Program-made: the position numbers and the translations under genes
In this document: positions 1-41,517 of the stretch, piece by piece
Layout: the number at the start of each line of letters is the position of its first letter
Numbering within the stretch: the first letter of the stretch is position 1
Assembly (NCBI GenBank): GCA_022822275.1
Contig: JAJEBZ010000145.1
Coordinates: 1 to 42,362 of the forward strand
Direction: 5' to 3'
DNA length: 42,362 bases
Source of the DNA: Candidatus Poribacteria bacterium
GTDB taxonomy: Bacteria > Poribacteria > WGA-4E > WGA-3G
The notes under the pieces: generated by a model
Told to the model about the DNA's origin: nothing
Seen by the model: only the letters and a program-made list of their open reading frames with translations
Databases searched by the model: none

Positions 1-1
1 C

Positions 2-553
2 TCTGTTGACTGTGCCGACCAAAACGCGACAGCTCTGCTCCGCAAGGCGGGTTTCAGAATCCAGGAACCCAAAAAATCCAAAGTCGCACAAATTGACATC
101 ATCAAACAACGTCTCAAGATAGACAGCACAGGCAAACCCTCGATCTCCTTCTTCCGCGACAGATTAGTCCACGACCCCGACCCAAGCTTACAGGAAACGT
201 ATCGCCCAACAGATGTCGTTGATGAGTTCCTTACCTGCACCTATGACGAAAAAATCACAGGCACTGGCAAAGACGACGAAGCCATCAAAGGCGATCATCA
301 CGGCATAGACAGCACAGCATACCTGCTGCTTAGCCAAAAGGAAAACAGCACCGTCGGCACCGGCAAAAACATGTTCTTCGCCATGGGCATCCCCAAAGAG
401 CAGTGGGACCCCGAAAAGCACATCGGCGGCGTCGACCCCGAAAAATTCATGAAAGAATACAACGAAAAGAAAAAAGACGAAAAGCAAGATGAAGAGCAAA
501 AAACAAAGAAAAAACCCAAATTTACAAAAGTCCCAGGAATACCATCAAGATAA
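2..553 (+). CDS. 5'-truncated C-terminal part of a phage terminase large subunit-like protein (nuclease domain)
   Basis: Frame 2 is open from the window edge to 553: SVDCADQNATALLRKAGFRIQEPKKSKVAQIDIIKQRLKID...VVDEFLTCTYDEKITGTGKDDEAIKGDHHGIDSTAYLLLS. The E...Y + GDHHGIDSTAYLL layout resembles terminase nuclease domains; low-complexity K/E tail. Confidence 0.55.
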   Translation, partial: SVDCADQNATALLRKAGFRIQEPKKSKVAQIDIIKQRLKIDSTGKPSISFFRDRLVHDPDPSLQETYRPTDVVDEFLTCTYDEKITGTGKDDEAIKGDHHGIDSTAYLLLSQKENSTVGTGKNMFFAMGIPKEQWDPEKHIGGVDPEKFMKEYNEKKKDEKQDEEQKTKKKPKFTKVPGIPSR

Positions 554-637
554 CCCTGGTTCAGAAAAACCGTAACAAAAAAATAACCCATATCCCAAAC
601 AAAACGATCTAATGCAAATGTCTTATCCGCGTATTCC

Positions 638-775
638 GCGAAATCCGTGTAATCCGCGATTCAGAAAACAACCTGCGAAATCCGTGTAATCCGCGATTCA
701 GAAAACAACCTGCGAAATCCGTGTAATCCGCGATTCAGAAAACAAACCCGCGAAATCCGAGATTCAGAAAAACCG
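638..775. repeat. Tandem repeat, ~37-bp unit GCGAAATCCGTGTAATCCGCGATTCAGAAAACAACCT, three near-identical units plus a degenerate fourth
   Basis: Unit starts at 638, 675, 712 and (degenerate) 750; core resembles the right arm of the foldback elements at 9509-9824 and 38948-39185. Confidence 0.9.
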
Positions 776-889
776 CAAATCAAACAAAAAACCTTATGCA
801 CACCATAATTCTTTGACACATCACCTAATTAGAAAGTATAATTACTAATGAAAACAAACATAAAAAATCACACATTATCGGAGGGAAAA

Positions 890-1126
890 ATGTTTGACGA
901 AATCGGAAAAACTGCCGGAGAAATATGGCAGTACCTTGAACAAAACAATGAAGCATCAGTCGGAAAATTAACAAAAGAACTGAAAAAAACCGAACGCCTG
1001 ATCCTCCTCGGCATCGGATGGTTAGCACGAGAAGGAAAACTCAGCATAGAAAAACGCCAAAGAGCAACATATTTCATGCTAAATAAAATGGTAACCCCCG
1101 AAAACGAGGAGAACGCACAAGAATGA
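890..1126 (+). CDS. Small winged helix-turn-helix protein (DUF2582-like)
   Basis: MFDEIGKTAGEIWQYLEQNNEASVGKLTKELKKTERLILLGIGWLAREGKLSIEKR; start at 890 preferred over 848 because of the GGAGGG upstream; stop overlaps next start (ATGA). Confidence 0.75.
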   Translation: MFDEIGKTAGEIWQYLEQNNEASVGKLTKELKKTERLILLGIGWLAREGKLSIEKRQRATYFMLNKMVTPENEENAQE

Positions 1127-3735
1127 AGCCAATTCGCCAATTATCAGTCGTGCCAACACTTCCACAGAACCTTGAACCATTACGGGAATTGGCACTAAAC
1201 TTGTGGTGGACATGGGACAATGACGCACTCAGCCTCTTTCGACACCTGGATGCTGAACTCTGGGAAGAAACATACCACAATCCCATCGCAATGCTCGGAA
1301 AAATCTCACAGGAAAAACTACAAACCGCAGCAAAAAACGAAGTCTTTTTAGCGCACCTCGACGTCATCCACAACAAGTTTAAAGCATATCTCTCTTCACC
1401 ATCATGGTTCGAAAATTATTCACAAGAAAATTCGCTGGAGAACCTAAAAATCGCATACTTTTCAATGGAATTCGGATTGACGGAGTGTATGCCACTCTAC
1501 TCAGGCGGACTGGGTGTCTTAGCAGGTGACCACCTAAAATCTACCAGTTATCTCGGACTGCCCTTTGTCGGTGTCGGCCTCCTCTATCAACACGGATATT
1601 TCCGACAAACGCTAACAGCAGACGGATGGCAAATGGCAGATTACCCAACAAATGACTTTTACAACATGCCAATTAAGCCTGAACTGAAACCAGACGGCAG
1701 CCAACTCCTAATTGAAGTAGAGTACCCAGAAGGAAAGGCAGTCGCAAAGGTCTGGCGCGCACAAGTCGGACGCATCTCGCTATACCTATTGGACACAAAT
1801 ATACCTGAAAATCAAGATACCGGACTGCGCGACATCACAGATTATCTTTACGGCGGCGATGAACGCATGCGAATCAAACAAGAAATACTACTCGGAATCG
1901 GAGGCTACAGAGCTTTAGCAGCACTCAAAATCAAACCAACCGTCTGCCACATGAACGAAGGACACGCCGCATTCCTCGCACTCGAACGCATACGACAACT
2001 GATGGAAAATACTGACATAGGGTTCGACGAAGCACGAGAAGCTACAACAGCAGGAAATATATTCACTACACATACGCCTGTCCCCGCAGGTATAGACTGG
2101 TTTCCACCCGACTTAGTCATGCAGTATTTTAAAAACTATTTGAGCGGACTCGGAATCTCCGAAGAAAAATTCCTCGGATTAGGAAGAAAAAATCCTGATG
2201 ATAATACCAGCGAATTCAGTCCCGCATTAGTCGCACTAAGACTCTCAACAATGTCAAACGCAGTCAGTCAATTACACGGAAAAGTCTCACGAAAAATGTG
2301 GAACGCACTTTGGAACAATCTGCCTGTCCATGAAGTCCCCATCAAAGCTATCACAAACGGAATACATACACGCTCTTGGGTCTCTGAAGATATGCAAAGC
2401 CTATTTAACAGATACCTCGGACCAAAATGGATCGTTGACCTCACAAACCAAGATGTCTGGACACAAATCTCACATATCCCAGATACCGAATTGTGGAGAA
2501 CCCATGAACGCCGACGCGAACGACTCATCGCTTTCGCTTTGCATAGACAAAGCCAAAAACGCCGAAAACAATCAGAACAAAACATCACAACACTGGAAAC
2601 ACACCAAGAAACAGGTGCAACCGCAAAAATACTAAACCCAGAAGCACTCACAATCGGTTTCGCAAGACGATTCGCTACATATAAACGCGCAACGCTGCTC
2701 TTCAACGACCTTGACCGACTCGCAAAAATACTCAACGACCCAGAAAGACCCGTACAACTCATCTTCGCTGGAAAAGCACACCCACACGACTATGAGGGAA
2801 AAGTCCTAATACAACATATACACCGTATCGCCGCAGAAACACGCTTCCGTCATAAAATCCTATTCATCGAAAACTACGACATCTGTGTCGGACGCTACCT
2901 CGTTGAAGGCGTTGACGTATGGCTAAACACCCCAATGCCACCCAACGAAGCAAGCGGCACAAGCGGAATGAAAGCCGCAGCAAACGGGGCTCTCAATCTC
3001 AGCATGGCTGACGGATGGTGGACTGAAGCCGAAAAACTCGGCGGCGGATGGACCATCGACGCAACACCAAAAGCAGATGACCAAAAATCAATAAATAAAG
3101 CACATGCAAACGCCATCTATGACCTGCTCGAAAACGAAATCGTCCCACTATTCTATGACCGACACCCAGTGGATGATATACCCTACGGATGGGTCGCAAA
3201 AATGAAAGCCGCCATGCAACTGCTCGCACCCGTCTTCAACACAAAACGAATGGTCGCTGAATATGCACAACGCCTATACTTTCCCGCACATAAAAGATGG
3301 ACAAAGCTAAACAACGATAACGCACAACGCAGTATCGCACTCGCAAACTGGAAAGCAAATATACGAAAACATTGGACTAACTTGAAAATTGAAGAACGAA
3401 TAACTAACGCCAAAAGAGAGACACCACAAAAAAGTAGCACAGCACATGTTGTCGGGGAATCGGTTACAATCCAAGCGATTATTCACACCGATACTTTCTT
3501 CCCAAACGAACTTGCCGTACAAATCTATCACGGTGTCCTGCAAGCAACAGGTGAAATCCAAAACGGAAACGTAACACAGATGGAGTACAAAGAAAACATC
3601 GCCAACGGAAAATTCCTCTATGAAGCACAACTCACACTAAACCAAACAGGACTGCACGGATACACACTCCGCGTCCTACCATACCACGAGGACCTACAAT
3701 CTATCTACGATCTCGGACTCATCACATGGGCATAA
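1123..3735 (+). CDS. glgP: Alpha-glucan (maltodextrin/glycogen) phosphorylase
   Basis: 870 aa; AYFSMEFGLTECMPLYSGGLGVLAGDHLKS, GFARRFATYKRA, LNTPMPPNEASGTSGMKAAANGALNLSMADGWW. Confidence 0.95.
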   Translation: MKPIRQLSVVPTLPQNLEPLRELALNLWWTWDNDALSLFRHLDAELWEETYHNPIAMLGKISQEKLQTAAKNEVFLAHLDVIHNKFKAYLSSPSWFENYSQENSLENLKIAYFSMEFGLTECMPLYSGGLGVLAGDHLKSTSYLGLPFVGVGLLYQHGYFRQTLTADGWQMADYPTNDFYNMPIKPELKPDGSQLLIEVEYPEGKAVAKVWRAQVGRISLYLLDTNIPENQDTGLRDITDYLYGGDERMRIKQEILLGIGGYRALAALKIKPTVCHMNEGHAAFLALERIRQLMENTDIGFDEAREATTAGNIFTTHTPVPAGIDWFPPDLVMQYFKNYLSGLGISEEKFLGLGRKNPDDNTSEFSPALVALRLSTMSNAVSQLHGKVSRKMWNALWNNLPVHEVPIKAITNGIHTRSWVSEDMQSLFNRYLGPKWIVDLTNQDVWTQISHIPDTELWRTHERRRERLIAFALHRQSQKRRKQSEQNITTLETHQETGATAKILNPEALTIGFARRFATYKRATLLFNDLDRLAKILNDPERPVQLIFAGKAHPHDYEGKVLIQHIHRIAAETRFRHKILFIENYDICVGRYLVEGVDVWLNTPMPPNEASGTSGMKAAANGALNLSMADGWWTEAEKLGGGWTIDATPKADDQKSINKAHANAIYDLLENEIVPLFYDRHPVDDIPYGWVAKMKAAMQLLAPVFNTKRMVAEYAQRLYFPAHKRWTKLNNDNAQRSIALANWKANIRKHWTNLKIEERITNAKRETPQKSSTAHVVGESVTIQAIIHTDTFFPNELAVQIYHGVLQATGEIQNGNVTQMEYKENIANGKFLYEAQLTLNQTGLHGYTLRVLPYHEDLQSIYDLGLITWA

Positions 3736-3747
3736 TCAAACAATGTC

Positions 3748-3840
3748 AGGACTTACGCATTCCCCTCGCTTGCTATTCTTAGCCCCGCTTGCGGGGGGTT
3801 GGGGGGGCGGGATAAAGGGGGGTAAAGTCCTGAACGTATC
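3748..3840. repeat. G-rich intergenic repeat beginning CAGGACTTACGCATTCCCC and ending GGTAAAGTCCTGAACG
   Basis: CAGGACTT...AAGTCCTG inverted ends around CCCCGCTTGCGGGG; related to the element at 4576-4786. Confidence 0.5.
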
Positions 3841-3949
3841 AAATTTATACTCTGCCGTTCCGAAAACACCTATTACTAACGTATAATTGATTAGATTGAC
3901 ACCAAATTGAAATCACACAAACGGGAACAACAGATTTAAACCCAATAGA

Positions 3950-4570
3950 TTGGACACGAAAACTCAAATGGCAAAAACGCAAATGAAAAGAAAAGCACAA
4001 ATCTCAAGAGAAACAAGAGAAACACAAATCCAACTCAGCCTCAACCTTGATGGAAACGGAAATTCCAATATCCACACAGGCATCGGATTCTTAGACCACA
4101 TGTTAGAACTCTTCGCAAAACACGGATTCTTTGATCTGGAAGTCAAAGCAAAGGGAGACCTACATGTTGACGCACACCACACAACTGAAGATGTCGGAAT
4201 CTGTTTAGGGCAAGCATTCCATCAAGCTGTAGGTGACAAAACTGGAATGATCCGCTTCGGAAACTTCACCGTCCCTATGTACGAAGCACTCGCAAGAGTT
4301 GATCTGGACATCTGCGGACGCCCCTTTCTATACTATAAAACACCCCTTGAATTCGGAAAAGTCGGGGAATTCGACATTGAACTAACGGAAGAATTCTTTC
4401 ATGGATTCGTAAACCACAGCGGCACAACATTGCACATAAATGTACCCTACGGCACAAACCAGCATCACATCATTGAAGCAATTTTTAAGGCGGTCGCAAA
4501 GGCATTAGATATCGCAACACACATGGACAATCGCATCACGGGAGTCCTCTCCACCAAAGGAAGTCTATAG
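3950..4570 (+). CDS. hisB: Imidazoleglycerol-phosphate dehydratase
   Basis: GIGFLDHMLELFAKHGFFDLEVKAKGDLHVDAHHTTEDVGICLGQAF; exact start uncertain (3950/3968/3983). Confidence 0.95.
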   Translation: MDTKTQMAKTQMKRKAQISRETRETQIQLSLNLDGNGNSNIHTGIGFLDHMLELFAKHGFFDLEVKAKGDLHVDAHHTTEDVGICLGQAFHQAVGDKTGMIRFGNFTVPMYEALARVDLDICGRPFLYYKTPLEFGKVGEFDIELTEEFFHGFVNHSGTTLHINVPYGTNQHHIIEAIFKAVAKALDIATHMDNRITGVLSTKGSL

Positions 4571-4575
4571 AACAG

Positions 4576-4786
4576 GGCTTACGCGTTCCCCCCTTGAATG
4601 AAGTTTAAATAAATATTTCGGTAATCCAGCAGAGAAAAACGTCCGTAGGGGCGGGGTTTCCCCGCCCGAAAATTACCGAATTAATAACTTAATCTTCATA
4701 TAAGGGGGGTTAGGGGGGGTAAAAAGTCGTTATTTTAGGTATTTAACCCCCTTATCAAGGGGACTTTAAGAGGTATTGCGTAAGTC
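4576..4786. repeat. Intergenic repeat element bounded by GCTTACGC / GCGTAAGTC with nested hairpins
   Basis: CTTACGC near 4579 and GCGTAAG near 4779; nested TTCGGTAAT...ATTACCGAA and GGGCGGGG-TTT-CCCCGCCC; AGGGGGG tracts. Confidence 0.6.
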
Positions 4787-4820
4787 TATAGAATACTGAA
4801 CTCACAAACACAGGAGAATT

Positions 4821-6113
4821 ATGAGCACAGGAAACGTTATCGCAGTCATATTGGGAGGCGGGCGCGGCACACGCCTATTTCCACTCACACGCGACCGCGC
4901 AAAACCAAGCGTACCCATCGCAGGAAAATTCAGACTCGTCGACATACCCATAAGCAACTGCCTACACTCAGGAATGGACAGAATATATGTACTCACGCAA
5001 TTTAACTCTGTCTCCCTAAACAGACATATCGCACAAGCTTACCGCTTCGATAGCTACCGCAGCGGATTCGTACAAATCTTGGCAGCACAACAAACACTCA
5101 TGGGCGATGAATGGTACCAGGGAACAGCAGACGCAGTCAAACACAATCAACCTTATATCCTAAATCCAAGATTCTCAGATGAATACGTCCTGATCCTCGC
5201 TGGAGACCATCTCTATCGTATGGATTATCGCAAAATGTTCGCCGTTCACACCGATACCAACGCAGACATCACCGTTTCTGTCATTCCTGTCAAAAAAGAA
5301 ATTACAAGCGGACTCGGAATACTCCAAACTGATGCAAACGGAAAAATTACCGATTTTATAGAAAAACCACAGAATGAGGCTGAATTGCAAAAACTACGGG
5401 TTGAACCTAACGTGTTTACCTCGCGGGGAATTGATCCAAAACAGAGAGAATATATCGCATCTATGGGCATATACATCTTCAACCGTGAAGTCCTACAGAA
5501 TGTGCTACAAGACGATACCAATGTAGACTTCGGTAGAGATATTATCCCAAAGTGCATCAAGACGCGCAAAGTGTCCGCATACTTCTTTGATGGATACTGG
5601 GAAGACATAGGTACCATCCGATCCTTTTACGATGCAAATATCGCACTTACCAACGTCTCACCAGAATTCAACTTTTACGATGAACAAGCACCTATCTACA
5701 CAAACCGAAGACACCTACCCAGCACAAAAGTCAACAGCAGTAGTATACGCTCCTCTATCCTCGCAGAAGGCTCTATCATTGACGACTCGGAAATCGACAG
5801 AACTATCGTCGGTATCCGCAGCAGTATCGCAAACGGTAGTCGTATTTACCAATCTGTCCTCATGGGTGCTGATTTCTATGAGTCCGACACACTACGCGCA
5901 GAAAACAACTTAAATGGAATACCAAACGTCGGAATCGGAAAAAAATGCCTTATTCAAAACGCAATTATTGACAAAAACGCACGAATCGGGGATAATGCTG
6001 TCATCGCAAATACAAAAAACCTTGACAATTATGACGCAGACAACTATTATATCCGGGACGGGATCGTTATCGTACCAAAAGACGCTACAATCCCACCCGA
6101 TACAGTGATCTAA
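4821..6113 (+). CDS. glgC: Glucose-1-phosphate adenylyltransferase
   Basis: AVILGGGRGTRLFPLTRDRAKPSVPIAGKFRLVDIPISNCLHSGMDRIYVLTQFNSVSLNRH. Confidence 0.96.
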   Translation: MSTGNVIAVILGGGRGTRLFPLTRDRAKPSVPIAGKFRLVDIPISNCLHSGMDRIYVLTQFNSVSLNRHIAQAYRFDSYRSGFVQILAAQQTLMGDEWYQGTADAVKHNQPYILNPRFSDEYVLILAGDHLYRMDYRKMFAVHTDTNADITVSVIPVKKEITSGLGILQTDANGKITDFIEKPQNEAELQKLRVEPNVFTSRGIDPKQREYIASMGIYIFNREVLQNVLQDDTNVDFGRDIIPKCIKTRKVSAYFFDGYWEDIGTIRSFYDANIALTNVSPEFNFYDEQAPIYTNRRHLPSTKVNSSSIRSSILAEGSIIDDSEIDRTIVGIRSSIANGSRIYQSVLMGADFYESDTLRAENNLNGIPNVGIGKKCLIQNAIIDKNARIGDNAVIANTKNLDNYDADNYYIRDGIVIVPKDATIPPDTVI

Positions 6114-6170
6114 ATCCTATAAACAATTTACAACATTACTGCTTTTATCACAGAAAGGCAGATACAATAT

Positions 6171-6446
6171 ATGGTTGAATTAAGACAGCAACTTCTGGTG
6201 CTACATTTACACACACCAGACCTAAACAGCCACGTCGTCGCATGGGCAATGTACGACGGCACCGGCAAAAAACGCTATACCACCGGGGATAGTGACGCAC
6301 CACCCTACAACTCCGTTGTTGAAGCAATGCAAGATGGGTGGCGGGTTATACAATTTCCACAACAATTCCCCGCTTTTCCCGGTATGGAGTATCACACTTC
6401 CTATCTAAGATTTGAATATATCTTGGAAAAAATGGAGGAAATCTAA
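6171..6446 (+). CDS. Hypothetical protein, 91 aa, coupled to the downstream PhyH gene
   Basis: Complete ORF with upstream AGAAAGG; its stop abuts the next ATG (TAATGG). Confidence 0.65.
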   Translation: MVELRQQLLVLHLHTPDLNSHVVAWAMYDGTGKKRYTTGDSDAPPYNSVVEAMQDGWRVIQFPQQFPAFPGMEYHTSYLRFEYILEKMEEI

Positions 6447-7267
6447 TGGTTGATAAACAACATCTCCTGACAACAGAACAGATGGCGAGCTTCGTAGCTG
6501 ATGGCTACCTCCGCTTTGATGACTTTATCCCCGATGAATACAATAAAGCCGCACATGAAGAAATGGCTTCAGGGGTGTCAACGCGCGGGGGCGGCGGCAC
6601 CGTCCTAAATGATGTATGGGGTGAAAATTCCGCAGTCGGAAACGTCTTCCGCTTACCGAAAGTACAAGGGATTATCCAAAGTCTTGTCGGCGAAAATCCA
6701 TTATACGACCATCATGCCGTGCACATCGTCCGGCCAAATAGTGAAACCGGACAAATATGGCACGCAGATGCAATCATCGACTTACGCATGCACTTTGATA
6801 TACAGTTCTTCTATTTTTCACACGATACACCACGGGAAATGGGCGGCACCATGATCCTACCCGGCAGCCATTTCAGACGTGTCTGTGAAACTGATATCGC
6901 ACGCTATCAAAACTTCCTCAGTCAACACGCAGTCGTTTGTAATGCCGGCACACTCCTTGTCGTCCACCACGGGATGTGGCACTGCGCACAACCCAACCTC
7001 ACCGACCAAACACGATATATGTTCAAGTTACGCCTAAACCCAACTGTACGCCAACTCAAACTCTGGAACACAGATGACCTGAATACTGCTGGTATCCGTG
7101 GAATCTTGAGCCGGAACCACAGGTGGTACGGAAATGATGTGCGACTTGAAATCGTGAACCGAATAAAACTATGGCGGTTCCTCATCGGCGATGAGTCCTA
7201 TGATGTCGGTTACTGGTTGTCCCGTCTGGAAAACATGCCTGAAAACGTGCCAAACGTCGCCGCATAG
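6446..7267 (+). CDS. Phytanoyl-CoA dioxygenase (PhyH)-like Fe(II)/2-oxoglutarate oxygenase
   Basis: 273 aa; QIWHADAIIDLRMHFDIQFFYFSHDTPREMGGTMILPGSHFRR...GTLLVVHHGMWHCAQPN: HxD...H pattern and LPGSH motif. Confidence 0.88.
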   Translation: MVDKQHLLTTEQMASFVADGYLRFDDFIPDEYNKAAHEEMASGVSTRGGGGTVLNDVWGENSAVGNVFRLPKVQGIIQSLVGENPLYDHHAVHIVRPNSETGQIWHADAIIDLRMHFDIQFFYFSHDTPREMGGTMILPGSHFRRVCETDIARYQNFLSQHAVVCNAGTLLVVHHGMWHCAQPNLTDQTRYMFKLRLNPTVRQLKLWNTDDLNTAGIRGILSRNHRWYGNDVRLEIVNRIKLWRFLIGDESYDVGYWLSRLENMPENVPNVAA

Positions 7268-7287
7268 CACTCAGACAGCATAAAAAT

Positions 7288-7321
7288 ACCTCACAAGGAT
7301 TATCATAATCTCTTGTGAGGT
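7288..7321. terminator. Hairpin after PhyH gene
   Basis: ACCTCACAAG-GATTATCATAATC-TCTTGTGAGGT with palindromic centre, 20 bp after the stop at 7267. Confidence 0.6.
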
Positions 7322-7404
7322 AATCAATAAATCAAATCGTTAGGTGAGGTTTCCTAACCAATTCAGAATACCATACGCGTATTCTGATGAACCAAGGAAC
7401 TGCA

Positions 7405-7429
7405 CGTAGGGGCGAGGTTTCCTCGCCCG
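7405..7429. repeat. Short hairpin repeat CGTAGGGGCGAGGTTTCCTCGCCCG
   Basis: Matches 4644-4668 (CGTAGGGGCGGGGTTTCCCCGCCCG) with a paired G-C to A-T change. Confidence 0.75.
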
Positions 7430-7469
7430 TGAAAACAAGACTAATCATGTTAATTTGGTATTACAGCAC

Positions 7470-8276
7470 TTACTTATCGCTCAAAGATTTTAATCTATGT
7501 TCAAGTTCTTGATATTTTTCCTTTTCTCTCTCAATTACACGTCTGAATCGAGGAGATTGTCTTTTCGCCTGTGAAGCACTTTTCCACATTTCTTTTATCC
7601 TTCTTTCTCTATCTTTCAAAACCTGTTGTATCTTTTTCCTTTCAGCTGCAATTTCAGCCGATTTTTTGGATCTGGACTCTCTGTTGTTACTTTCGTTTCG
7701 CTGATAGGACTCTGAACGGTTTGAATCACGGCTACCGCCACCACTACGACTATCACTATTGAGGAACTGCATATTCCCACTGTTAAGCGTAAGGGTTTCA
7801 CCGTCATTGTCCAAACTGACCTGCTTCTGTCCAATATCTTTGACAACCATATCACCGACTTTTTCGCCAATGCTGACAACATAGAATTGATTACTGCCTT
7901 TTTCCAACACGAATGCTTCCGAATGGTTGCCATTCGGATCAATCGCAGTACCAATCAAGGTATACGCGGGTTCTTTATGCGGTGGTTCCCAACCGAGCGG
8001 GCGAAAAAGGTTATTGTCAATGATCACCTGATAATAATCTGAATTATCATCAGACTTACTGTTTTCTGGCTGTTCCTTTGAACGCCAATAAGATGTCTTT
8101 TGATGGGTTGAAGACTGCCCCTTATGAGGCATCGCTTCTGATTTCAGTTCTTCTGCTTTTACCTGTGTACTTTCCTTTTTATTTGAATATTTTGCTTGAA
8201 GTCCAACCCCGAAAACAAAGAGTAGACCTATTATACAAGCAATTCCAAGTACAACCAGGATTTTTGAAAAATTCAC
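7470..8276 (-). CDS. Membrane-anchored GspC/PilP-like protein with charged coiled C-terminus (paralog 1)
   Basis: N-terminal TM segment, linker, then DYYQVIIDNNLFRPLGWEPPHKEPAYTLIGTA...VGDMVVKDIGQKQVSLDNDGETLTLNSGNMQFL. Confidence 0.6.
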   Translation of the reverse strand: MNFSKILVVLGIACIIGLLFVFGVGLQAKYSNKKESTQVKAEELKSEAMPHKGQSSTHQKTSYWRSKEQPENSKSDDNSDYYQVIIDNNLFRPLGWEPPHKEPAYTLIGTAIDPNGNHSEAFVLEKGSNQFYVVSIGEKVGDMVVKDIGQKQVSLDNDGETLTLNSGNMQFLNSDSRSGGGSRDSNRSESYQRNESNNRESRSKKSAEIAAERKKIQQVLKDRERRIKEMWKSASQAKRQSPRFRRVIEREKEKYQELEHRLKSLSDK

Positions 8277-8380
8277 ATTATGCTCCTTTCAAACTATCAA
8301 CACAAAAGATTGATTTATAACACTATAGACGCAAACGATTTAATTATGTTTATATTATTTACGTCCAAAATAGGAAAACA

Positions 8381-8426
8381 ACAACAAACCCTATAAGTGA
8401 CGTGTGCCACTTATAGGGTTTGTTGT
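8381..8426. terminator. Perfect 19-bp stem hairpin between the two minus-strand paralogs
   Basis: ACAACAAACCCTATAAGTG / CACTTATAGGGTTTGTTGT, 8-nt loop. Confidence 0.75.
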
Positions 8427-8463
8427 CGTGCGAATACAAAAGGATTATGATTGTAAATACAAA

Positions 8464-9336
8464 CTACCGATCTCCTCCACGACGTCCTCTGAATCCGCCG
8501 CGGTCACCTCCACGGGAACTGCCCATGCGTTCACGGAATTGACGCATCATCTGTTCACGTTGCTCAGGAGAGGCATTTCGGTATCTACTCATACCTTCTT
8601 GCCATCTTCGTGATCGTTCTTCTCTGGCTCTTCGTTCAGCTTCTTCTTTAGCTTTTGCTTCTGCAGCTGCTTTTTCTTTATCTGAAGACCTTGATGAAGT
8701 GCGGCTATCTTCATCTCTGTTGTCGTTTCTGTTGTTTCCTCTGGACGAACCGCCCCGTGAACTGCCACCTTGGAGAAACTGCATATTTCCGGCTTTGAGG
8801 GTAATTACCTCACCATCTTTGTCTAATATGATCTGCTTCTGTTTGATGTCTGTAACAACTGCGTCTCCGATTTTATCGCCAATCACTGCGGTATAAAACT
8901 TATTTGACCGCCTCTCTAAGATGTATCCCTCTAATTTTGATCCATCAGTAGAAACAGATGTACCGATGAAAGTATATTCAGGTTCTTGTCTCGGGGGTCT
9001 CCAACCGAGAGGACGAAATATGTTGTTGTCCACAATCACGCGGTAATAATCAGTACTACTTGAGGCGTTAGAATCGTTTGAACGTTGCTGTCCACCCCAA
9101 TTCTGTTGGCGATTTTGCCCGCCCCAGTTCTGTTGGCGTCCTTGTCCGCCCCAGTTTGAACCCTGTTGGCGGTTGCGAAACTGTGCGGATCGTTGTTCCA
9201 TTTGTGATCGGTTTTCTGTCGCCGCAATCAGTTTTTCCTTGTCTTCATTCTGTGCCTGTAGACGTATGCCAAATACAAGCAATAAACCTAATACACAACC
9301 TATTCCCAATATACTGAGGATTTTCTTAAATTCCAC
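8464..9336 (-). CDS. Membrane-anchored GspC/PilP-like protein with RGG-rich C-terminus (paralog 2)
   Basis: DYYRVIVDNNIFRPLGWRPPRQEPEYTFIGTS...IGDAVVTDIKQKQIILDKDGEVITLKAGNMQFL; NWGGQ repeats near the N-terminus; SSRGGDRGGFRGRRGGDR tail. Confidence 0.6.
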   Translation of the reverse strand: MEFKKILSILGIGCVLGLLLVFGIRLQAQNEDKEKLIAATENRSQMEQRSAQFRNRQQGSNWGGQGRQQNWGGQNRQQNWGGQQRSNDSNASSSTDYYRVIVDNNIFRPLGWRPPRQEPEYTFIGTSVSTDGSKLEGYILERRSNKFYTAVIGDKIGDAVVTDIKQKQIILDKDGEVITLKAGNMQFLQGGSSRGGSSRGNNRNDNRDEDSRTSSRSSDKEKAAAEAKAKEEAERRAREERSRRWQEGMSRYRNASPEQREQMMRQFRERMGSSRGGDRGGFRGRRGGDR

Positions 9337-9508
9337 TGTTTTCTCCTTATACTCAGTGCAAGTGAAATGAATATAATTATATCATGAAGGTGTTCTTTTT
9401 TAGGTTAGACTTATTAAGTCGTAAAAGGTTCGTTTTTAATGTCAGAATATTTTCTGTTTATAATTATACCACAGTTTTTAAGTTTAAGTCAAATTATGTT
9501 CCTAAGGG

Positions 9509-9824
9509 GGGTGTGTAAAGTAATTGTCACCCTTTTTGTCAGAATCACCAAATCAAGAAATCAACGGTATGAATGCTCTATAGCATTCCCCGGGTATGAA
9601 TGCCTTATGGCATTCCCCGGATTACACGGATTTCACGGAAGGCGCGGAGAAGACCTCTGCATCTAAGTGTATTGCTTAGAGAACACTTATCCGCTGCCAT
9701 TACGATCTCAGTCTGGTATCTTATCCGCGCACTCCGTGTAATCCGCGAAATCCGCGATTCCGCACACAAAGAAAATATGAAATTCCAAAATTGACACTTA
9801 TAGTGAAAAAAACTTTACACACCC
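9509..9824. mobile_element. MITE-like foldback element, 316 bp, copy A
   Basis: Ends GGGTGTGTAAAG... and ...AAAAACTTTACACACCC; interior homologous to 38948-39185 (CACCCTTTTTGTCAGAATCAC, ATTACGAT.TCAG.CTGGT, AAATATGAAATTCC.AAATTGACACTTATAGTGA). Confidence 0.85.
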
Positions 9825-9840: not shown

Positions 9841-9870
9841 TTGACTTAGACTATGATATTGTGTCATAAT
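9841..9870 (+). promoter_or_regulatory. Candidate sigma70-type promoter (TTGACT-18-CATAAT)
   Basis: TTGACT at 9841-9846 and CATAAT at 9865-9870, 17 bp beyond the end of MITE copy A. Confidence 0.45.
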
Positions 9871-26913: not shown

Positions 26914-26930
26914 AAAAACTTTACACATCC
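26914..26930. repeat. Solo TIR-like motif AAAAACTTTACACATCC
   Basis: One mismatch to the terminal repeat of the MITE-like family; second degenerate copy AAATATTTACACACCC at 27111-27126. Confidence 0.6.
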
Positions 26931-27162
26931 GTTGAAATATGTTCCTTGATTTTTCTTCACTCTTATCGTATACTGTTTACCAATTCTAATAAATACTGTT
27001 TCATAAAGGAATTCAACTGTTATTGTTTGCTGGAGGGACCTTTCTTCTGTCCGCTTGACCTCTCTATCACTCGGCCAGAATCTGTGTAGTCCCTGAACAG
27101 ATAATTGACAAAATATTTACACACCCAAGATTGTAGGAACTTGATTTTTTAAGGAGACACTC

Positions 27163-36762: not shown

Positions 36763-36820
36763 TTCAGAATCAAATGGATTGCGAATTTTTTAGAAAAAAG
36801 GACATATCATTTATATACAA

Positions 36821-36848
36821 AGTGTAGCATAGTTCGTGTTGTTTTGCA
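36821..36848 (-). promoter_or_regulatory. Candidate promoter for the minus-strand TPR gene (TTGCAA-17-TACACT)
   Basis: On the minus strand: TTGCAAAACAACACGAACTATGCTACACTTTG. Confidence 0.45.
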
Positions 36849-36863
36849 ATCTTGTATCAGAGT

Positions 36864-36913
36864 GGGTGTGTAAAGTTTTTCGCGGTTCTGTGTGGCAAAA
36901 ACTTTACACACCC
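36864..36913. mobile_element. 50-bp minimal element: perfect 17-bp TIRs around 16 nt
   Basis: GGGTGTGTAAAGTTTTT-CGCGGTTCTGTGTGGC-AAAAACTTTACACACCC. Confidence 0.85.
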
Positions 36914-37052
36914 ATATAATTTACTATAGTTTGGACAATTTTTTTTCAGACATAAAGTTAATAAGAAATTGGTTTACCGCTTTGTGTGATTGTTATGGTT
37001 AGGAAATTGCCCTTATTTTGCGGTTAAAAATGTGTCAAATATTTTTTCAAAT

Positions 37053-37088
37053 CTTACCACGTGGTAAGAAATTTCATACCATGGTATG
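37053..37088. promoter_or_regulatory. Paired perfect palindromes (candidate operator)
   Basis: CTTACCACGTGGTAAG (37053-37068) and CATACCATGGTATG (37075-37088), centres 21 bp apart. Confidence 0.6.
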
Positions 37089-37394
37089 TTTTGAAAAAGT
37101 GGTGTTACGCCTGTCGTGGTCTGGTCTGATCGGTGTTTTTTTTGATTTTGCATAATTTTTTTATGTGTATATTGGGTTTTGCGATTTTTTTCATGTGTTT
37201 TTTTGCGTTTTTTGTATGATAATATTATATCTCATTTGATGGTGGTTTGGGAGTTTTTTCGTGGTTTGCTTATTGGGATTTCCAATAGGTATACAATAGA
37301 TATCCAAGTGGTAGTCGGTTATCAACTGATTGCTATGTTGTCTGAACAAGGATTTCTGATTTGGTGTAATCCACGATTGAGACAACCCTATACG

Positions 37395-37432
37395 AAAAAC
37401 TTTACACACCCTCAGAGATGTGTAAAGTTTTT
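37395..37432. repeat. Outward-facing TIR pair AAAAACTTTACACACCC...ATGTGTAAAGTTTTT
   Basis: Same motif as the MITE TIRs but in inverted (back-to-back) arrangement with a 6-nt spacer. Confidence 0.8.
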
Positions 37433-37433
37433 A

Positions 37434-37461
37434 TTGACATATTTTCAAAGTTTTGTATAAT
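37434..37461 (+). promoter_or_regulatory. Consensus sigma70 promoter TTGACA-16-TATAAT
   Basis: TTGACATATTTTCAAAGTTTTGTATAAT directly after the TIR pair. Confidence 0.7.
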
Positions 37462-37552
37462 AGTGATGTATAATAAATTTGTAGGAATGATTTTTCTACA
37501 AGTAAACGACTGCTTTTGTCTTTTTTGAGCAATCGCAAGTAATAAGTGTTGT

Positions 37553-37906
37553 TTGATTGGTATTGGCACAGATATTCAAACAGGACGAAGGATGGCGAAA
37601 ATGCAAGATGCTTATAGCAACCGCAATGTTGAATGGACGACTCTAATTCGTCTACACCGCTTCCACGTTTGTTCTATTCTTGGACTCTCTGTGCTTTTAT
37701 CTACTATCCGTTATATTAACTATCGGTTTACCCCCCCCTTCATAAAAATTAACAACTGTAATAACATATCAGTTGACGAACAGGCGAATATCGCTGGTGT
37801 TCATCAACTTTATTATTGTGCCCGTACGCTCTCTATTCACTTGAGTAGTTTGCTGCGGGCTATTTTGTTTGCAGAAAGGGATATCTTAACTATTATTCAG
37901 GGATAA
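37553..37906 (+). CDS. Uncertain ORF, 117 aa
   Basis: Open frame downstream of the consensus promoter; no recognisable domain, weak RBS. Confidence 0.3.
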   Translation: MIGIGTDIQTGRRMAKMQDAYSNRNVEWTTLIRLHRFHVCSILGLSVLLSTIRYINYRFTPPFIKINNCNNISVDEQANIAGVHQLYYCARTLSIHLSSLLRAILFAERDILTIIQG

Positions 37907-38072
37907 AAATATTAGAGTTTCAAATTTACTTTAGGAACTCTAACTGTAAACCTAATCAGGATTATATTAATTGGTTGACTTAATTTACTGTGTAAATCCT
38001 GATCAATAATTATAAATAGCCAAAAACTGGTATAGCAACCATTTTTGGATTTGAAAACTATAGGAGAATACA

Positions 38073-38843
38073 ATGACTTTCAAGAGTATAAAAGTGACCT
38101 GTATACTCAGTCTATTACTTACAACTATCTGGTATGTAAATGTGACTGATGCGGAGGATTTTGTAACAGATGGACTCGTAGCGATGTATACACTCAATCA
38201 ATCAGACCTTAAAGGGGACGTTGTCATGGATACGTCTGGTAACGATAACCATGCAAAATTAGTTGGCAGCCTTGATTTTGAAGAAGGTCCTATAGGAGAC
38301 GCGCTGAGCTTTAGCGGATCAGCAGGTAATTATGTGGAACTTCCCAATATGGATCCTTTTGAGTTTTCCTCTGTTGAATGTTATGCTTTAACAACAGACT
38401 TAGCTCCAACATATCAAGGCATAATTTCTACCCAAACATGGTCAGCAGGTAAGGTTCATTTCAAATTTCAAGCTAGTCAGATACAAGTTGACAAAAACGG
38501 AGGTGCTAAAATCGTTTCTGCTGCTGTTGCAAACACATGGTACCATATCATCTATACAATGAATTCTCAGGATAACGAACTCAAGTTATATGTAGACGGT
38601 GAGTTGGCTGCAGAAGGGGCTGCTGGTACTGATCCTGAAATCTGGATGAACCGTCGCATTGGTAGTGAACATGATGAAAATCGCTATCTACAAGGTATGG
38701 TTGATAACGTTCGTATCTATGATCGTGTTTTGACTAAAGAAGAGGTCATGCAGAACTTTGAGGCAAAATCCGACTCGCTACCCGTTGAACCTACAGACAA
38801 ACTTTCTACCACTTGGGGAGCACTCAAGAGTAAGAGAAACTAA
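38073..38843 (+). CDS. Secreted LamG/concanavalin-fold protein
   Basis: Signal peptide; DGLVAMYTLNQSDLKGDVVMDTSGNDNHAKLVGSLDFEEGPIGDALSFSGSAGNYVELPNMD...MVDNVRIYDRVLTKEEV. Confidence 0.9.
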   Translation: MTFKSIKVTCILSLLLTTIWYVNVTDAEDFVTDGLVAMYTLNQSDLKGDVVMDTSGNDNHAKLVGSLDFEEGPIGDALSFSGSAGNYVELPNMDPFEFSSVECYALTTDLAPTYQGIISTQTWSAGKVHFKFQASQIQVDKNGGAKIVSAAVANTWYHIIYTMNSQDNELKLYVDGELAAEGAAGTDPEIWMNRRIGSEHDENRYLQGMVDNVRIYDRVLTKEEVMQNFEAKSDSLPVEPTDKLSTTWGALKSKRN

Positions 38844-38947
38844 TACCATTTTAAGTGATAATGCCTCATTACTAATTGGAAGAAACTTCATGCCCCCATA
38901 CGTTATCGCTATGGGGGACTTCCCTTATCAGGGGGACTTTTGAAAGA

Positions 38948-39185
38948 GGGTGTGTAAAGTTTTTGGCACCCTTTTTGTCAGAATCACGGATTTCGCGGAT
39001 TACGCGGAAGACGCGGAGAAAGACCTCTGCCTCTAATCGCATTGCTGAGATAACACTTATCCGTTACCATTACGATTTCAGGCTGGTGTCTTCTCCGTGC
39101 ACTCCGTGTAATCCGCGATTCCGTACACAAGGAAAATATGAAATTCCTAAATTGACACTTATAGTGACAAAAACTTTACACACCC
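38948..39185. mobile_element. MITE-like foldback element, 238 bp, copy B
   Basis: GGGTGTGTAAAGTTTTTGGCACCC...ATAGTGACAAAAACTTTACACACCC with interior homologous to 9509-9824. Confidence 0.88.
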
Positions 39186-39237
39186 TTAAAAGACATTCTT
39201 AATGGCAATTATTTAAAAAAGTGGTATAATAGTTCTT

Positions 39238-40152
39238 ATGTCAAAGATTCAAAAGGCGATTATTCCGATCGCTGGATACGGAACACGTCTCTTCCCCGCA
39301 ACGAAAGCCGTGCCAAAAGCACTATTTCCAATTATAGACAAAGACGGTTTCGCAAAACCGATCATTCAGTTGATAATTGAGGAAGCACTATCAGCAGGCG
39401 TGGAAGAGGTGTGTCTCGTTGCACAACCCCATCAGGTTGAACCGATTACTGATTATTTTTCTGGGGATGTCCCAGAGGCAATCCGAGAAAAACCTGAATT
39501 GGCTTCACAAGCCGACATTTTGACTGAAATAGGTGAACGGTTGCAATTTGCTATTCAAGCAGATCCGCAAGGGTTCGGACATGCAATCTATTGCGCGCAG
39601 GATTTTGCGGCAGACGATCCTGTTATGATTCTGCTTGGCGACCATCTATATATATCTGAAACAGAATCCTCTTGTGCTAAACAGTTGGTAGATGTCTATG
39701 AGCAAGTTGGACAATCCGTGACGAGTCTTGATGTTTGTGATGAAAGCGAACTCTCTCTGAACGGTATTGTGCATGGCGAAGTATCTGACGAGAATCTAAG
39801 CCTATTCAAGTTAGCACGTATCTCGGAAAAGCCTTCTGTAGACTTTGCCCGAGAACACATGCAAGTTGAAGGGGTATGGGACGCGGGGAAAACACATAAA
39901 TACCTATGCCATTTCGGTATTGACCTTCTTACGCCACTTTTGTTTGATATACTGGATTACAACTACTGCAACAACATTCTGACACACGGTGAGATTCAGT
40001 TGCGGGATGCAATGGCTGAAATGGTGCGACAGGAAGGTATGTACGGTTTCCGTGTTGCTGGCAATCGTTATGATACAGGCAATCCACGAGAATTACTCAC
40101 AACTGCCCATGCCTTTGGTCTTCAAGGTCCTTATTGTGATGCCTTAATCTAA
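39238..40152 (+). CDS. galU: UTP--glucose-1-phosphate uridylyltransferase
   Basis: IQKAIIPIAGYGTRLFPATKAVPKALFPIIDKDGFAKPIIQLIIEEALSAGVEEVCLV. Confidence 0.9.
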   Translation: MSKIQKAIIPIAGYGTRLFPATKAVPKALFPIIDKDGFAKPIIQLIIEEALSAGVEEVCLVAQPHQVEPITDYFSGDVPEAIREKPELASQADILTEIGERLQFAIQADPQGFGHAIYCAQDFAADDPVMILLGDHLYISETESSCAKQLVDVYEQVGQSVTSLDVCDESELSLNGIVHGEVSDENLSLFKLARISEKPSVDFAREHMQVEGVWDAGKTHKYLCHFGIDLLTPLLFDILDYNYCNNILTHGEIQLRDAMAEMVRQEGMYGFRVAGNRYDTGNPRELLTTAHAFGLQGPYCDALI

Positions 40153-40854: not shown

Positions 40855-41023
40855 TTAATCTTCCTATTCTTATCAAACTAATTAGATTGTAATTATATCA
40901 CAATCCAGTTTTTAATAGTGGTCTAAATTTTCCAGGGTTATTTAGTTTTAGGTATTTTGGTCGTTTTTTATCACAATCGTCGATCCTTCGGTTTGCTTAT
41001 TTTGACGAGTTAATTCATTCTTT

Positions 41024-41168
41024 GTCTGAACCAGGATTTTCAGGATTACCAGATTACCAGGATTTTTCTCATCAGATCCTATTCTAAAAGAGAACATAAA
41101 CGCGTATCAAAAATCCTTGATGAGGTAAATCCTGGTAATCTGGTAATCCTGAAAATCCTGGTTCAGAC
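41024..41168. repeat. Long inverted repeat: 51-bp arms, 43-nt loop
   Basis: GTCTGAACCAGGATTTTCAGGATTACCAGATTACCAGGATTTTTCTCATCA (41024-41074) versus reverse complement at 41118-41168, 2 mismatches. Confidence 0.9.
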
Positions 41169-41517
41169 AAAAACTTTACATCCTATTGTGTTTTTTTCTT
41201 GCATTTAATAATCAAAAATGCTATAATTTCATAAGAATTTGTTAATTTGACCTAAAAATAAACGTATTATAATCGTAACAAAGGATAATTTAATTGTAAA
41301 GTTGGCAATATCGGTATCATTTTGCTGGGTTCAGCTGCACTTTATTGCTTGGTTAATGTCAAATTCTGTAATTTACATAACAAGAACTATTTCGGTACAG
41401 CTAGCAAATCGAAATAGAATTAAGATTTATATAACATAATTATGATATTTTGGTAAGCGCGCTTTTTGCCAAGATACCATAAGAATGTGATTGAACGAAA
41501 AGGAGAATTCATAGCTA

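Follow-up and report, generated by a model that had tools for sequence, protein, structure and literature searches.

MITEs with ISKra4-type ends lie upstream of predicted promoters in a Candidatus Poribacteria genome

The stretch of DNA analysed here (the window; 42,362 nt) belongs to a Candidatus Poribacteria assembly of ~4.5 Mb (4.53 Mb in 320 contigs, 96.4% complete) and carries, at 9509-9824, a short repeat with inverted ends; the locus raises the question of what this repeat is, what could have moved it, and how a genome comes to hold so many sequences of its kind. The reading in which we have high confidence is that this repeat (copy A) and a second one in the window (copy B) belong to a set of MITEs bearing the TIRs of ISKra4-family insertion sequences (ISs), and that such elements would have been mobilised in trans and inserted upstream of promoters.

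The first-pass annotation of this DNA proposed a non-autonomous, MITE-like family and suggested a whole-genome search with its 17-bp TIR. That sequence, GGGTGTGTAAAGTTTTT, within which sits an A-rich AAAAACTTT stretch, has 189 exact matches in the assembly, compared with 0 for a reversed-pattern control, and by TIR count this genome tops the 60 that were compared. The window alone holds 10 matches at up to 3 mismatches (0.22 expected from shuffles), in keeping with the earlier estimate of about ten. An extended 21-base TIR is found at no fewer than 80 public loci, all of them Poribacteria among the matches listed. The element has spread to more than 100 sites in one genome of an uncultured Poribacteria lineage, of which 60 stretches (~0.87 Mb including the window, mostly from contigs 1-128) were read base by base. 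The two copies that define the repeat in the window are laid out as follows.

9509-9824, + strand: copy A, MITE of the CGG-foldback type, 316 bp
9509-9525, + strand: left TIR of copy A, GGGTGTGTAAAGTAATT, 2 mismatches
9808-9824, - strand: right TIR of copy A, exact
38948-39185, + strand: copy B, MITE, 238 bp, perfect 17-bp TIRs
38948-38964, + strand: left TIR of copy B, exact
39169-39185, - strand: right TIR of copy B, exact

Copies A and B had been described as sharing inverted ends and a homologous, self-pairing interior, and both parts of that description hold. In the same orientation, the two align at 93% over B positions 1-40 and at 85% over positions 40-238, so the homology runs well past the TIRs into the interiors. 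As single-stranded DNA, copy B folds at -62.1 kcal/mol (shuffles -23.5, sd 3.7; z -10.4) and copy A at -62.5 kcal/mol (z -9.5 versus shuffles), and the interior of copy B folded as RNA gives a z of -9.65. Such a very strong foldback is what might be expected if the repeat were a host regulatory or structural sequence (an operator pair, an attenuator or a REP-like hairpin) kept near promoters without any transposon being involved. Against that explanation, the hairpin shows no compensatory base changes among 20 copies and no double change in any pair, and covariation as a sign of RNA function was rejected on this ground. The foldback arms consist, in alignment, of ~9-bp CGGATTACG-like units that vary in number between copies; together with the lack of compensatory changes, this makes the hairpin look like a by-product of the repeat structure and not like a selected RNA. 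At three loci (L038 1501-1746, L062 12381-12626 and L067 562-798) the central foldback module has the opposite orientation with respect to the TIRs, as though its two arms had recombined and turned it round.

Across the genome, TIR pairs bound dozens of elements of 150-600 bp without coding capacity, foldback interiors being frequent among them, and 67 distinct elements have facing TIRs and a length of 50-599 bp. Their interiors include the CGG-foldback type seen in A and B (some 157-320 bp long), a type of 183-186 bp, types of ~250-480 bp that start GCACAGAAG, GTACAAAAG or GTACAATAC, and one of 533-548 bp that is represented in the window at 36864-37411. Sequence clustering returned one group of 59, one of 6 and two 50-bp palindromes; the group of 59 is chained through mosaic elements, so these 'types' are not clean families. 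The earlier reading of a single family needs correction, since at least four interior types share the TIR, while its view of the elements as non-autonomous and MITE-like stands, with homologous interiors, target duplications (TSDs), empty sites and an autonomous relative with the same ends. Further TIR-bearing features of the window are listed here.

36864-37411, - strand: MITE of the longer type, ~548 bp
36864-36913, no strand: 50-bp near-palindrome of two facing TIRs, forming one end of the ~548-bp element
37416-37432, + strand: degenerate lone TIR that continues directly into a TTGACA-N16-TATAAT promoter
26914-26930, - strand: lone TIR, 1 mismatch
27110-27126, - strand: lone TIR, 2 mismatches

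A 533-bp element of the same type as that at 36864-37411 lies at L087 6528-7060 within an exact 9-bp TSD, and the near-palindrome recurs there at 7011-7060. The window also contains, at 41020-41190, a further foldback repeat built of CAGGATTACCAGG units with TTTGTCTGAACC ends and one degenerate TIR-like end, CAAAAACTTTACATCC; relatives of this repeat with full TIRs occur in a related genome, G007 (L290 1339-1513).

The flanks of these elements carry the signature of insertion. For 53 TIR pairs, 9-bp flank identity was 0.453, compared with 0.271 expected (sd 0.022), and the check for target duplications that had been suggested earlier found exact ones of 9 bp in nine cases and of 8 bp in four, and none of 10-12 bp. 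These statistics indicate that the elements are transposon insertions, and the elements with GGGTGTGTAAAGTTTTT ends are MITEs: short, dispersed in many copies, bounded by TIRs and TSDs, and without a transposase inside. Their origin as internally deleted copies of an IS was ruled out, since MITE interiors are unlike ISKra4-family ISs beyond the ends, where the match covers 17-25 bp (45 bp in one case). Another candidate IS, a TIR pair spaced by 1.7 kb with a gene inside (L049 12744-14438), was set aside, as the pair has no TSD and the gene is one that, from its sequence, we take to be a HEAT-repeat-like host gene.

Copy B illustrates such an insertion, and its surroundings are as follows.

38940-38947, no strand: TSD left of copy B, ttgaaaga
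39186-39193, no strand: TSD right of copy B, ttaaaaga, 7/8 identical to the left one
39202-39230, + strand: promoter-like atggca-N17-TATAAT, -35 box 16 bp outside the right end of B
39238-40152, + strand: NTP_transferase (galU-like) gene, directly behind the targeted promoter-like site

Orthologous loci do not always carry the repeat: no TIR was found within 330 bp upstream of the galU-like gene at 15 of 17 same-genus loci (L271-L285), a set that includes this genome, with G007 as the other TIR-bearing member, and to which the same-genus genome G006 contributed no locus. In three of the genomes (G001, G003 and G017) only 4-17 bp separate the end of the preceding gene from the aligned part of the galU-like gene. 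Copy B is a clean insertion upstream of this gene, and the TSDs and empty sites refute a host repeat as the sole origin of these elements, although later co-option of MITEs as host elements may have occurred. The G007 locus lacks the preceding gene and carries another MITE, a mosaic one, whose end lies 3 bp farther from that promoter on its upstream side; probably the promoter was hit independently there and a deletion ensued. Compared with window 36764-39185, G007 (L270 1070-1523) lacks ~2.2 kb, among it the gene at 38073-38843, and has a MITE at the junction, a gap that reads as a MITE-associated deletion.

The position of copy B relative to a promoter-like site turned out to be general, and insertion ~16 bp upstream of predicted σ70 promoters, of which the first-pass annotation made no mention, appears to be the main feature of the family. 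Promoters were scored by the two-hexamer E. coli consensus only. Reading outward from 414 unique flanks, TTGACA-like hexamers numbered 28, 59 and 25 at offsets 15, 16 and 17 (background ~4) and TATAAT-like hexamers numbered 69 at offset 39 (typically ~7), with no such peak on the same flanks in the opposite reading direction. In this genome 65 of 173 flanks scored at least 9/12 with the -35 box at 14-18 bp, as opposed to 5.2 on average and 12 at most in shuffles, and other 5-bp offset classes gave 4-15 flanks, the overlapping 15-19 class excepted; 40 of 64 complete elements have a promoter on at least one side, and for about one-third none could be recognised where the spacing predicts one. 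The same peak was obtained independently from G010 alone (29/68 flanks) and from other Poribacteria (39/108).

The gene context agrees with this placement. With ORFs called mechanically and covering 84%, none of 54 elements lay inside an ORF, the neighbouring gene pairs were divergent in 28 cases, tandem in 15 and convergent in 0, and beyond 53 promoter-bearing ends the first ORF was oriented outward from the element 50 times. Avoidance of gene disruption would explain an intergenic site but not a fixed 16-bp spacing, so the narrow offset peak serves as its own control. Published work reports that ISKra4-group ISs insert 13-17 bp upstream of σA promoters, on both sides if their IRs are symmetric, and that TnGBS and ISLre2 insert 15-17 bp upstream of the -35 box (PMC3942029); as judged from spacing, the MITEs appear to inherit this promoter-upstream specificity of ISKra4-group ISs, TnGBS and ISLre2.

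A strict position relative to promoters would also suit a host-maintained repeat, as would the lone TIRs that lead directly into promoters. Yet an element upstream of the -35 box is not transcribed by the promoter that it adjoins, which argues against a host role of that kind, and the exact 8-9 bp TSDs, the empty orthologous sites and a transposase-bearing element with the same ends (described below) all speak for transposition; on balance, a host repeat with no transposon behind it is very improbable. Lone TIR-like ends that run inward into a TTGACA-N16/17-TATAAT-type promoter were seen at window 37416-37470, L062 3503 and L070 11891, and it is possible that these promoters were made from element remnants. 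As a general feature, TIR-derived inward promoters were rejected, since they occur at only 4 of 425 ends and are probably chance or isolated cases.

If the elements are passengers, an autonomous relative with the same ends should exist, and the search for one that had been proposed earlier was successful among relatives. G010, a closed genome of the same genus, has a conspicuous class of TIR pairs spaced by 1.45-1.47 kb, which enclose a 445-codon frame for an ISKra4-family transposase (NF033572, 238.7 bits). Intact ISKra4-family ISs of 1430-1480 bp with transposases of 427-460 aa and the same TIR are present in same-genus and same-family genomes, and the 17-bp TIR is identical in G009, G010, G014 and G035. 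Transposases from relatives score 238.7 and 225.6 bits against the NF033572 profile (curated cut-off 205), whereas the same proteins reach 63-78 bits against the ISLre2 model, far under its cut-off of 200; DG, GDGA and GSGxIESACKHV-like motifs are conserved in six transposases and may hold Mutator-like DDE residues. One such IS (L119 1000-2465) has an exact 9-bp TSD, and those at L117, L118 and L119 show the promoter spacing of the MITEs beside them. At L118 1061-3990 two different ISKra4 elements stand head to tail, with the 8-bp AAAATAAA between them and after the second.

In this genome, the absence of a transposase noted earlier for the window extends to the whole assembly, in which neither NF033572 nor PF00872 (IS256-type) has a match, and the TIR-rich genomes G007, G017 and G011 likewise gave no ISKra4 match. 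Therefore, the earlier description of the family as active or recently active is not borne out here, and the elements may at present be inactive in this genome. A high-copy IS may, however, drop out in binning as a short, deep contig, so it was not concluded that the cell lacks one. An ISKra4-family IS is the likely mobiliser of these MITEs.

Mobilisation by an IS256-family (Mutator) transposase was weighed as well, because IS256 also makes 8-9 bp duplications and five of 60 relatives have PF00872 matches, most of them incomplete. It was rejected: PF00872 is missing from this genome and from the same-genus genomes except G011, the exact TIR was found on ISKra4 elements instead, and no IS256 element with GGGTGTGTAAAG ends was seen in this genome or its relatives. 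In addition, IS256 insertions are reported to be random, without promoter preference (PMC3942029), and an IS256-type partner is, by our estimate, very improbable.

We propose that an ISKra4 transposase, putatively a Mutator-like DDE enzyme, would act in trans: it would recognise GGGTGTGTAAAGTTTTT-type ends, excise or circularise the element and insert it, with an 8-9 bp target duplication, at a point that precedes the -35 box of a σ70 promoter by ~16 bp, the target probably being chosen through contact with promoter-bound RNA polymerase. Because such an insertion leaves the core promoter intact and displaces only sequence upstream of ~-51, it would be cheap for the host, and copies could accumulate. 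Copy A would later have been joined to a second locus, either by MITE-MITE recombination or by assembly through the repeat, as its flanks suggest.

9500-9508, no strand: left flank of copy A, tcctaaggg, with its partner at L046 142-150 and not at the right end of A
9463-9492, - strand: promoter-like TTGACT-N18-TATAAT, -35 box 16 bp outside the left end of A, toward ORF 8464-9336
9841-9870, + strand: promoter-like TTGACT-N18-CATAAT, -35 box 16 bp outside the right end of A

The TIRs and interior of copy A confirm it as a copy of the repeat, but no target duplication is present at its two ends and the idea of a clean insertion fails. The left-flank sequence tcctaaggg recurs directly right of a MITE that opens contig C22 (L046 142-150). 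In G007 a single MITE is bordered by the C22 flank and the left flank of A; the right flank of A is MITE-free there and belongs to a different contig, and the gene preceding it in G007 is found on contig C44 of the present assembly. This comparison of flanks indicates that a MITE in the window now connects two loci that used to be apart. A separate foldback repeat, TTTAGTCCCGTG...CACGGGACTGAAA, lies on C44 (L057 ~8740-8850) near another breakpoint between this species and G007.

Two accounts of the junction are about equally likely. In the first, to which we give slightly less than an even chance, the rearrangement is real and MITE-MITE recombination joined the left of one insertion to the right of another. 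It would account for promoter-like sites 16 bp from both ends without a TSD, for the recurrence of tcctaaggg beside the MITE of C22, and for the arrangement in G007; moreover, all nine elements of this genome with promoters at both ends are without a TSD, compared with 11 of 31 one-promoter elements that have one, a difference expected by chance in ~4% of cases and offering a weak fit to joined halves. On the other hand, a search of the assembly for the reciprocal junction that such an event should leave, TGGTAAAAA followed by a TIR, gave no match, and C22 opens inside the same repeat, identical to copy A over about its first 90 bases, which also resembles a wrong join by a short-read assembler. 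In the second account, which we put at an even chance, the window is chimeric at copy A and 1-9508 and 9825-42362 are not true chromosomal neighbours. The same flank, promoter and G007 observations fit it, as does a 320-contig assembly in which many contigs end inside these repeats; against it, the part common to copy A and the C22 copy contains two base differences, by which reads could have separated them. Short-read Poribacteria assemblies may carry wrong joins at these repeats.

Promoter-upstream insertion would explain why genes remain unbroken in a genome so rich in insertions. In practice, the inserted ends pinpoint predicted promoters to a couple of bases and so yield, without any experiment, a promoter map of an uncultured phylum; the sites so marked suggest that Poribacteria housekeeping promoters follow a TTGACA-N17-TATAAT plan. 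It is conceivable, though rather unlikely, that the 17-bp ends at ~-51 serve many Poribacteria genes as a common upstream element by which their transcription is set or insulated; if so, by placing one identical end upstream of promoters, a transposon family would have partly rewired a regulon.

Nothing relevant on ISKra4-type or Poribacteria MITEs was present among open-licence papers, and the nearest systems are found in other hosts. For a MITE of Porphyromonas gingivalis, we know of no promoter-proximal targeting. Like the present elements, whose interior contains short repeats (~9-bp CGGATTACG-like units), that MITE, from a different host, has an internal minisatellite, a likeness in general description (PMC4596501). 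MITEAba12, also from a different host, is by general description similarly non-autonomous, IS-derived and present in multiple copies (PMC6382973). The TnGBS ICEs and ISLre2 (p-MULT 3) share insertion 15-17 bp upstream of the -35 box and, unlike these MITEs, are large ICEs or full ISs, mostly in one fixed orientation (PMC3942029). Close too are the ISKra4-group ISs (p-MULT 4; Guerillot et al. 2014, PMC3942029), with which the present system shares the transposase family, above cut-off, near-perfect IRs and a 13-17 bp promoter spacing on either side. Unlike those ISs, the present copies are short and transposase-less, differ from the autonomous element in their interiors and are far more numerous than it, and their host, Candidatus Poribacteria, lies outside the phyla given for p-MULT 4 (PMC3942029). 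In this way, promoter-targeted transposition would extend from full ISs and ICEs to non-autonomous passengers present in more than 100 copies per genome.
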